Assembly (NCBI GenBank): GCA_023053545.1
Contig: JAKZAN010000006.1
Location: forward strand, 11,911,412 to 11,975,411
Direction: 5' to 3'
Source: Lepidurus packardi
Lineage: Eukaryota > Arthropoda > Branchiopoda > Notostraca > Triopsidae
Length of the DNA: 64,000 bases
The translations under genes and the position numbers were made by a program. Within the stretch, counting starts at the first letter, position 1; each line of letters begins with the position of its first letter. A model generated the notes under the pieces. The model was not told the DNA's origin, ran no database searches, and worked only from the letters and a program-made list of their open reading frames with translations. This document shows, piece after piece, positions 21,093 through 39,449 of this stretch.

Positions 21093-24000
21093 ATGGAGTC
21101 TGCGCAATCTTTTACGGAGGCGCTCAATGTAGTCTCTCCTATCATTGCAGTGCTGAGTCCGGGGGATGATGTCAACAATGAAAACTGTGCCAGTTCCGCT
21201 TCATCCTCATCATCGCTCCGAAGAATTGGAGCGGTTCGCCACAAGCGCCTTCAAGTTCAACCCAACAGCCAGTCCACCGTGTCGCTAAGACATTTAATAC
21301 CGCCTAGGTCTAATCCCACTACTAAACGCTATTTGGAGCTTGACGCCAAATCTGAAACAAGGACCAGCCCAGACAACGACTCCGAGTGCAGCGACTACTC
21401 CAGTGAAAATGAAGATTTGTTCCTTACACCTTGTGATGTGAATAAATCCTTCGTTTTCCCAAACTCCATTGAACCGAATGTGTCATTGGCGACACAAGCT
21501 CCACGTGACCAGGAATTTATAAAAACTCAAGTTAACGAAGCCACGCCCGCTGAACTGCTTTCCAAAGCCGAGGAACTACTACGAGATTTAAAAAATTATA
21601 TTTCCCATCCAGGCCCCATAACGCAACACACTCCAACACTGCAGGTAAACTGACTTTTAGGTAAACTGGTAAATAACTTAATTTTAAGTTTTGTCACATT
21701 TTCCTACGTATGGGGGGCGTATTCCAATTGTTGTAGTTGGCTTCTTCTCAATTGATCCAAATCAATTCAAAGGACGATAATCTGGTATTGTGGAACAGTT
21801 GGCGTGAGATACTCTTATGTTAAGGAGTTAAATTAATACGAAAAGTAGCGTGTAACCCGTTGTTCCTATCAAGAATACTTTTGGTTAAATTAGGAACGCA
21901 TATATATAAGAAGATTCGGAGGAATAATCTAGCTGTACAAAGCATAATAGTGAGACTCTTCCTTCGGAATTACATTACGAGGTAAAAAATAGTAAAAATG
22001 ACTCAAACCTGTCTTAAAATTAATTTTTGACTGTTTAGATCTTACATATAGTTCTATTTATAGGTACTGTAAAAAGATAGGCAATAGAGACATATACGCC
22101 GTTAAAATACAAAATAGGTGCTCTAAAAAGCTCCCTGTCATTGTCAGTGAATTCTGGACGGGACTCGTGGGTTTACTCCGGGTTGTATTCGCAGTTAAGC
22201 CGTTGCCTTTCGAACCCTTGTTTCTGTAGTTACGAAAGCAAGCCGGAGCAAAGCTACAAGTGCGGCCAGCGTTCAATTCGCCATGAAATGCTCGTTAGCA
22301 ATTTTTTTTTTATGTAAAGTTTGGTAGGATAGTTTTTGTAGTCACACATTTTTCCTTGCTATTTTACAGGTAAACCATGAAACCCTTTCTCCGGACCATT
22401 TTATAGAGACGCAATATTGGCGTGATCCCTTTCCACCTTTCGAGCTTTCAACATGCTCATATCGCTCACCTGTCCTTGCCAATTCTTCAACGATCGATCC
22501 CATATCTCTAATTAGCGACAAATCTAAGCAAGACTACGTTTCAGATATGGGAAACAAGCACAGCAATGATAGGAGTAAGAACAAGGGTGGGTTAACATCC
22601 TCGCCTGCGTTGTCACCACCGTTCTTATCACCCGCCAGTGACGTCACGGGTGACGTATCCAAGAAAAAAACCTTGGAAAAGATCCGTTTCCTGCCTGGAG
22701 CCTCGCCGATAGCCACGGGCGCTCCAGGTAAACCAAAGGAGTCTCCTTGTTCCACCACCAAGAGCAACATTAGTCTTCCAGACATCCCAAACGGAACCGG
22801 CAGTGATAGAAGCAACAGCCCGCAGTTGCTCATCACTGAAAGTGTTGTTTTGGAAAGGAAAAAGCACCATCAACGCCAAGAATCCAACGCAAGTCGCACT
22901 GAATCATTGTACACGGCTCAAGGTGAAGAAACGGATACGGATAGTGTGCGTTACTTCTCTAGTTTGCCGAGTCCAGAAACTGAAAGTGCTCCCTTATGCC
23001 TAAGCGATGTTGTTTCACCTGAGCCCCAACCTGCGCTTGTGGAAAGTGGCTCTGATAGTGTGGTTGCCGCTCCAGAAAAGCCGCGGTTACTACTACGGTC
23101 ACGGTCAGTGACCGAGAACGCTTTGGCAACGCCTGATGGCCGTCAACTTTCCCATTCTGATGCTGATGCTCTCGATCTGCAAATAGGCGACATTCAGTTT
23201 CACTTGGATACGACGGTTCACGCATATGCATGGACGCCAGAGTTAGCTGCCTCCATTCTAACAAAGTACTCGACCCATGAGCTCAAAGTGGCACTGAGTC
23301 AGACAAAAAGCGAGAATTCACCCGCTTTGGTTCAAGATCCTGCACATTACAGTAGCATGGCTACGGATTACGGGTCCAGTCCGGCCAGTAATGGCGGCAG
23401 TATGGGTCTCCGAGGGGGCGTTACCCAGTTTACGCTGACAAAGCATAAGAAAGTGGAACTCCCTCCGGCTAGCAGCGGCCAGCATGGCATGATGTATGGA
23501 AATAACGGAATGATAAGCAGCCCAAGCGGAAGTCAAGCTCATTCTGCGTCACCGGCACGCAAAGAGCGAGATACTATGGGTACCAGCGGTGAGGCCAGTC
23601 TCCATCCGTCCACAGGTTAGATGATTTAACATCTTCTTTTTTATTTTTTTCTAGTAGGAATAGTATTGCTATCACAACGCCATTTAGCGTTCGACTTTAA
23701 GGCTAGCTGTTAGATATGCCTAAGTGTGCATTTTTCAAGTTGGCCAGTCATGTTAAAGTTCTTATTCGATCATTAGTTACGGAGCTAAATTTGATCATTT
23801 ATATATTTATTAACACATGCTAAGTGTATCTTCGTGAAAGAATTCGAAAATAAGGAATAATAGGAAGAAAACCGATGCTTGCAATGATATTTTATTTCGC
23901 ATTTTGCCTACTGTTTTCTAGGATAAGGTTTGCAAGAATAAGCTAACAATAATTAATATTGTCGTAATAAAGTCCACAATTGCAATATTTAGTTGATATT

Positions 24001-38549: not shown

Positions 38550-39449
38550 ATGGCTCGATCATCGTCGTGGTCATTCATAGTGTTGATGGTCGCCTGCACC
38601 CACAATTACAGCACGTGCCAAACCCTGACGGTGAACAGCAGCAGTCCTTCGCCGCCACAACTGGCCCGACTGCGACACCACAGCAGCTTAGTCCCCGCCA
38701 AATCCGGCTCCATATTAGAACACATCGACAAGGACCAAGTGGAGCGCTACTTGAACGAAATTCGCCTCAATCAAACGCACCAACGACTGCAAGCCTCGCG
38801 CCGTCCTTCGGCCACCTCCTCTGCCCCGGAGTCCTTGCCAGTACCGTTGACGAACGCGAAATTAACTATATACGAACCGCTGACCCCGGCCAATACCCCG
38901 AGCGTGCTCAAAATCCGGCACCGTAACCATCGGAACCGTAACAAGGGCTTCCTCCAGGAGACAGCGAACCACTCGTCCAACGAGGGCTACAACCCGTTCC
39001 GGAGCAAGTTCAACCGGAGCGTACCCATCCTCCAGTCCAGTAAAGATGCGCTCTTTGTAACCCGCAAGGAGTACTTGCGCTCTGACTGGTGCAAGACCCA
39101 ACCTTTATTACAACGCATCACGGAAGAAGGCTGCTTGTCCTACACGTTCCTTAACCGCTTCTGCTATGGGCAATGCAACTCCTTCTTCATACCCAAGAAC
39201 ATTCGCCCTATTGCTAATACGCCCGTGTCACTCAGGCGTGCCCATAATCACCTGGGCGACGGGGCAGCCCAGCAGCAAGCACAGCAACAGCAAGCCAACA
39301 CGGCCTTCCGGTCCTGCGCCTTCTGCAAACCCAAAAAGACCTCATGGGTCACCGTAACATTAAAATGCCCTTCCCTAACACCACCGTACCGGCGTCGTCG
39401 AGTGCAGAGTATTAAGCAATGTCGTTGCATAACCGAGGTTCTAACTTAA
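38550..39449 (+). CDS. Gremlin, DAN-family BMP antagonist
   Basis: A single exon of 299 aa. A hydrophobic signal peptide (SFIVLMVACTHNYSTC) is followed by a long N-terminal region with several N-glycosylation sequons (NSS, NQT, NHS, NRS). The C-terminal cystine-knot DAN domain starts near residue 173: KEYLRSDWCKTQPLL, EEGC, NRFCYGQCNSFFIP, SCAFCKPKK and KQCRC. All nine cysteines of vertebrate gremlin are present in the same order. Gremlins are secreted and sequester BMP ligands. Unusual here is a ~25-residue Gln/Ala-rich insertion (GDGAAQQQAQQQQANT) inside the knot between FIPKNIR and SCAFC, where vertebrate gremlin has only a short loop. AATAAA follows the stop by 27 bp. Confidence 0.96.
   Translation: MARSSSWSFIVLMVACTHNYSTCQTLTVNSSSPSPPQLARLRHHSSLVPAKSGSILEHIDKDQVERYLNEIRLNQTHQRLQASRRPSATSSAPESLPVPLTNAKLTIYEPLTPANTPSVLKIRHRNHRNRNKGFLQETANHSSNEGYNPFRSKFNRSVPILQSSKDALFVTRKEYLRSDWCKTQPLLQRITEEGCLSYTFLNRFCYGQCNSFFIPKNIRPIANTPVSLRRAHNHLGDGAAQQQAQQQQANTAFRSCAFCKPKKTSWVTVTLKCPSLTPPYRRRRVQSIKQCRCITEVLT

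Follow-up and report, generated by a model that had tools for sequence, protein, structure and literature searches.

The closest described counterpart of the locus analysed here is the mouse limb deformity locus, in which FMN1 adjoins GREM1 with the formin 3' end towards gremlin, and which is the classic example of enhancers lying within the introns of a neighbouring gene. In the part of the paper drawn on here, Zuniga et al. 2012 report linkage of Grem1 with Fmn1 in every vertebrate that they compared. They place the limb control region of Grem1 downstream of this gene, in the interval from Fmn1 exon 19 to exon 23, and Fmn1 exon 9 about 200 kb downstream of Grem1 (PMC3541112); since the control region and exon 9 are both downstream of Grem1, the two genes are therefore arranged tail-to-tail. 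Control of Gremlin in the limb by intronic enhancers within Formin is also stated in the excerpt of a 2025 paper (PMC11933693). The neighbours of gremlin 2 have been named as FMN2 and RGS7, in a passage whose "5' side" wording leaves the orientation of FMN2 and GREM2 unsettled (PMC5274524). As for invertebrates, the excerpt of Roch and Sherwood 2014 describes a limpet scaffold which carries SOSD and Grem. Limited synteny, with DAAM, Lgmn, and FMN among the genes, connects it to two scaffolds of amphioxus and to three chromosomes of human; citing Irimia et al. 2012, the authors proposed a common cis-regulatory element as possible (PMC4079206).

In the genome of Lepidurus packardi, a formin gene is followed by a gremlin gene on the same (+) strand at a distance of 7.2 kb, the formin 3' end pointing at the gremlin 5' end, so that the two are direct neighbours. 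The window, that is the whole stretch of 64,000 nucleotides that was analysed (C5:11911412-11975411), contains no N bases and lies within one 12.48 Mb contig bearing both genes. The assembly comprises 108.6 Mb in 344 contigs, among which the large contigs C1 to C6 have 14.0, 13.5, 12.9, 13.5, 12.5, and 10.7 Mb, respectively; the further contigs sampled (n=16) were all 2.1 Mb or smaller. No recognisable gene was found between formin and gremlin by Pfam on the open reading frames of the gap or by Rfam and ARAGORN on the window. The adjacency and the common direction of the two genes, both claimed in the initial annotation, were thus borne out. The features of the window, by position, are as follows.

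2715-3074, minus strand: PLD-like (Pfam)
8378-9400 and 11394-11987, plus strand: SAM/Pointed and ETS domains, probably of one ETS factor (Pfam)
19019-19615, plus strand: ankyrin repeats (Pfam), of a gene presumed to be IkB-like
21093-26720, plus strand: formin 5' part, provisional; same-strand open frames, putatively assigned to formin
21093-21653, 22328-23620, 25005-25214, 25210-25527, 26504-26716, plus strand: open pieces of the formin 5' part, exon structure provisional
27030-27759, plus strand: formin exon with coiled coil and FH1 (gt/ag borders, open frame)
27813-27909, 27961-28111, 28341-28490, 28846-29055, 29137-29331, plus strand: formin FH2 exons (gt/ag, FH2 of the joined model)
29390-29522, 29623-29715, 29791-29842, 29920-30075, 30161-30260, plus strand: formin FH2 and tail exons (gt/ag, joined model)
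30261-31281, plus strand: last formin intron, 1021 bp, holding a dispersed repeat at about 30345-30870
31282-31329, plus strand: last formin coding exon (open frame to the stop)
31330-38525, no strand: intergenic gap, with a repeat at 32539-33177; 33250-38525 single copy and without recognised coding sequence
38456-38549, plus strand: candidate splice acceptor, TTTATGTTTTAG ending at 38456, and putative 5' UTR of gremlin
38550-39449, plus strand: gremlin, single coding exon with DAN cystine knot (open frame, Pfam, PDB comparison)
42977-44749, plus strand: PP2A scaffold HEAT repeats (Pfam)
48170-50065, minus strand: TMC (Pfam)
53480-53815, minus strand: ERG4/ERG24 family (Pfam), which we take to be lamin B receptor-like

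The 3' model of the formin gene consists of 12 C-terminal exons (27030-31329, plus strand) separated by 11 introns, all of them gt...ag, and the joined exons give one open frame of 704 residues which ends with a stop codon at 31327-31329. Along this model a coiled coil and a poly-proline FH1 (both recognised by eye) are followed by the FH2 domain and a basic tail, and the FH2 domain covers profile positions 3-372 of 372 with an E value of 1.4e-80 (Pfam, joined model). The exon at 27030-27759 may start a few bases further upstream, after the preceding tttcag, and the acceptor before the exon at 29920 (gtaaag) is weak, the frame being open there. In the 5' part, a Pfam scan of the four open pieces within 21093-25527 returned no domain above cut-off, including no Drf domain, for a 5' gene model that is incomplete, and a short peptide of this part presumably resembles FMN N-termini. 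The intron at 28491-28845 (355 bp) is composed to about 89% of TA dinucleotides, mostly in a single run of about 300 bp.

The last formin intron measures 1021 bp in comparison to 51 to 355 bp for the ten preceding introns, and it was weighed as a possible counterpart of the control region that the mouse has from Fmn1 exon 19 to exon 23. About half of it is a repeat insertion of about 525 bp (30345-30870), for which 39 other long copies were found among 40 scored of 808 candidates; because the length of the intron stems from this dispersed repeat, the parallel was ruled out and the intron was dropped as a regulatory hint.

By elimination, the window formin probably belongs to the FMN/cappuccino class. 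Its FH2 domain gave moderate matches to PDB chains of DAAM1 (3.7e-28), DIAPH1 (1.8e-27), FMNL3 (2.5e-22), and INF2 (8.7e-19), together with entry 9ya0, a chain of 5051 residues and unstated origin which bears the name "Formin 1", at 2.3e-21; there was no identified FMN-class FH2 among these matches. FMN/cappuccino formins carry a Spire-binding basic C-terminal tail. The tail of the window formin is basic, and a search with its 44 residues for a Spire-binding tail gave no PDB match up to E 10. In the whole genome FH2 matches were found at nine places including the window locus, and own-genome matches to the window FH2 outside the locus reached at most 34% identity. With partial FH2 queries, the best PDB match was FMNL3 for the formin on C6 (1.3e-55), DAAM1 for that on C4 (4.5e-39), DIAPH1 for that at C3:0.66 Mb (9.7e-32), and INF2 for those at C3:8.31 Mb (2.4e-18) and C3:2.52 Mb (1.2e-10, the weakest of the five). 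Five of the six other animal-type formins therefore fit FMNL, DAAM, DIAPH, or INF, and the remaining one, on C1, we take to be FHOD. According to the excerpt of Pruyne 2016, animal formins comprise nine subtypes, of which GRID2IP and PHCF were lost in ecdysozoans, and MWHF is devoid of the C-terminal part (PMC5047451); FMN is then the class left over for the formin in the window.

The two formins at C109:53290-54363 and C127:63806-64867 were set aside as foreign because their frames are open, over 1304 and 1215 codons, respectively, only when TAA and TAG are read through, as in many ciliates; they hold 30 and 31 in-frame TAA/TAG codons, respectively, and no TGA. These reading frames indicate that a ciliate, or another organism with the same code, was co-sequenced with the animal. 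Legumain-family genes on C258 and C308 are each almost entirely open, interrupted by a single TAG or TAA, and may share the foreign origin. COX1 on C43, C52, and C214 is uninterrupted in the standard code, and these are likely bacterial contigs. Many COX1 fragments with in-frame TGA were found on C1, C2, C4, C5, C6, C21, and C38, most of them on the large contigs, and are nuclear copies of mitochondrial DNA. By eye, these copies read sensibly under the mitochondrial code of invertebrates, in which AGA stands for Ser and ATA for Met, and the COX1 protein seems to be of branchiopod type.

Gremlin is a secreted inhibitor that binds BMPs. By sequence, the neighbouring gene is clearly a gremlin (GREM1/GREM2) of the DAN family. 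Its single coding exon runs from the ATG at 38550 to the stop codon at 39447-39449, its N-terminus is visibly hydrophobic in the sequence, and the DAN domain (PF03045) was found with an E value of 1.6e-33 by Pfam. The best PDB matches were GREM2 (3.2e-38) and GREM1 (7.4e-38), with a range of 1.1e-36 to 3.2e-38 for GREM chains, in comparison to the far weaker 4.4e-8 and 8.6e-8 for NBL1, and the identities in the printed alignments were 61/109 (56%) with GREM2, 65/108 (60%) with GREM1, and 28/87 (32%) with NBL1. All nine cysteines are kept with respect to each of GREM1, GREM2, and NBL1; since NBL1 has all nine too, they mark the wider DAN family and not gremlin. Between its two halves (window ~39200-39300), the DAN domain carries some 30 inserted residues with runs of Q, placed between residues equivalent to IRK and SFQSC of GREM1. 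The candidate acceptor TTTATGTTTTAG ends 93 bases before the gremlin ATG, and a possible non-coding first exon of gremlin would lie inside the gap.

The DAN-family search of the genome gave two loci (2 matches, all 5 candidates scored), the other being on C2 and NBL1-like (NBL1 1.7e-15 vs GREM1 5.5e-9). Collections of viral and genome contigs yielded no relatives of gremlin, which is in keeping with its being an animal gene. Both the formin and the gremlin appear to be single copy in the genome, within the extent of these searches. A similar set is described in the excerpt of a study on Tribolium, an arthropod with two DAN-family genes, Dan and Gremlin, as in this genome, while Nasonia is given there as having none (PMC4218986). 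The identities proposed for the two genes of the pair were supported by the domain and PDB searches, with the formin class resting on elimination.

The gap was searched for coding sequence and for signs of regulation. It holds 38 open reading frames of at least 60 aa, none of which had a Pfam match at E <= 0.01; the sole match up to E 1 was at 0.082, below its cut-off. Over the whole window, Rfam gave nothing that reached a gathering score, and ARAGORN gave no tRNA. The repeat at 32539-33177 (about 640 bp) is dispersed: of 605 candidates 40 were scored, and 39 of these were further long copies. Its copies are 79% to 84% alike and present on all six large contigs, one lies in the window at 58140-58795 on the minus strand, and short stretches match the opposite strand, so the repeat is perhaps partly palindromic. 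Positions 33250-38525 matched only themselves in the own-genome search; because the downstream flank of gremlin (39480-42900) is equally single copy, matching only itself as well, this property is not special to the gap and was found uninformative as a sign of constraint. GLI-like motifs were not enriched, with 10 in the window in comparison to 7.59 expected and 22 of 100 shuffles reaching 10, and one of them lies in the gap.

RYR is a human neighbour of the pair and human SCG5 adjoins GREM1, and the choice of RYR and SCG5 for the following comparison rests on this. None of the four old neighbours looked up was within 8 Mb of the pair. RYR is on C1, an SCG5-like gene (secretogranin V, 7B2) is at C5:3379808-3380181, about 8.6 Mb from the pair, and matches of animal type to the legumain family lie on C1 as well as at C5:1.43 Mb, either of which could be legumain. 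DAAM, located by genome profile search and PDB match, is on C4 and thus unlinked to the pair on C5, whereas in the limpet it shares the neighbourhood of Grem and FMN according to the excerpt cited above (PMC4079206). Because the old neighbourhood did not stay whole, the retention of the pair is informative; the dispersal of the other neighbours lends modest support to selection holding the pair, without proving it.

FMN2 and GREM2 are adjacent genes, as are those in the window, and their arrangement is presumably tail-to-tail. That vertebrate pairs converge, as the initial annotation had it, agrees for FMN1-GREM1 with the positions of the control region and exons in the excerpt of Zuniga et al. 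2012, in contrast to the tandem arrangement here (PMC3541112). The further suggestion that one gene was inverted also stands: relative to FMN1-GREM1, it is gremlin that is reversed, whereas the formin end stays as it is. The tandem and tail-to-tail arrangements differ by one local inversion, and either may be ancestral; a particular orientation is not known to characterise the pair in animals other than vertebrates. As in the limpet (Lottia) and amphioxus, Grem and FMN share here one pre-vertebrate neighbourhood, known in those animals at scaffold level and in the window by distance and orientation (PMC4079206, as excerpted). The claim that the linkage predates the vertebrate genome duplication is therefore right but not new, having been shown earlier at scaffold level in limpet and amphioxus (PMC4079206, same excerpt). 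What is apparently new is the arthropod case, the short gap, and the tandem arrangement; in the openly licensed literature, which was covered in part, no arthropod FMN-GREM adjacency was in print among the matches listed.

We give about even chances to the explanation that the pair is an ancestral bilaterian neighbourhood which was inherited and has been kept together because sequences that control gremlin lie between the genes and/or within the formin introns. An FMN-class formin would have stood beside gremlin in the bilaterian ancestor and been inherited by the present invertebrate; by analogy with the mouse, control elements of gremlin may be located in the gap and/or the formin introns, and if so, breaks between the two genes would be selected against and the formin carried along as a bystander. 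Shared regulation holding the pair is plausible and has already been proposed in print, and such elements are known for mouse FMN1-GREM1 and hypothetical for the window pair, with its gap of 7.2 kb. Passive retention is nearly as likely, in which the pair was inherited too, but the short interval escaped breaks by chance with no shared regulation. Compact genomes such as this one keep some neighbours by luck, and the gap spans just 7.2 kb; the flanks look ordinary, in that the downstream one is single copy and GLI-like motifs are not enriched. The orientation, unlike that of FMN1-GREM1, and the formin class, assigned by elimination, also weigh against the regulatory explanation. On the other hand, the same linkage is found in limpet, amphioxus, and vertebrates in the excerpts cited, DAAM, RYR, and SCG5 are gone from the neighbourhood here, and the pair outlasted an inversion, all of which speak against passive retention.

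Inheritance in either form is very likely in comparison to chance, judging from the adjacency here and the published limpet, amphioxus, and vertebrate linkage. That the two genes parted and were rejoined in the present lineage, an event of which the flip would be a remnant, would suit the tandem order, which is not tail-to-tail, but is quite improbable: random adjacency of two named genes is expected at about 2/N, or 0.8e-4 to 2e-4 for an assumed N of 10,000 to 25,000, and the linkage occurs in two other invertebrates in the excerpt of Roch and Sherwood 2014. This figure of about 1e-4 overstates the case because the pair was picked out among many genes, and it is the linkage reported in other animals which makes inheritance the clear choice. 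Slighter still is the prospect of an error, either a false join in an assembly which does contain foreign contigs, or a formin of a different class, given that the class was assigned by elimination with no identified FMN-class FH2 for comparison and that the "Formin 1" chain (9ya0) matched at 2.3e-21, weaker than DAAM1 at 3.7e-28. A false join is opposed by a window free of N within one 12.48 Mb contig, and mistaken identity by the clear gremlin assignment and by the five of six other animal-type formins which best match another class, even if the weakest of these (INF2, 1.2e-10) came from a partial query.

Building on the explanation by maintained gremlin control elements, a bolder and rather doubtful proposal is that FMN-GREM is a regulatory block predating the arthropod-vertebrate split, which here would span about 8 kb (the last formin intron and the gap) and would have outlasted both the break-up of its neighbourhood and the flip of one gene. 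If this were true, the gremlin control elements would function in both orientations, and the arrangement at the mouse limb deformity locus would have been elaborated late, from a gremlin control region of early bilaterians that would fit whole into one reporter construct. The surprise is limited because pre-vertebrate linkage is already in print, and the interest is moderate because the locus is small enough for testing. In general, with so compact an invertebrate locus it becomes feasible to examine whether regulation holds the pair and whether control elements of gremlin are older than vertebrate limbs.
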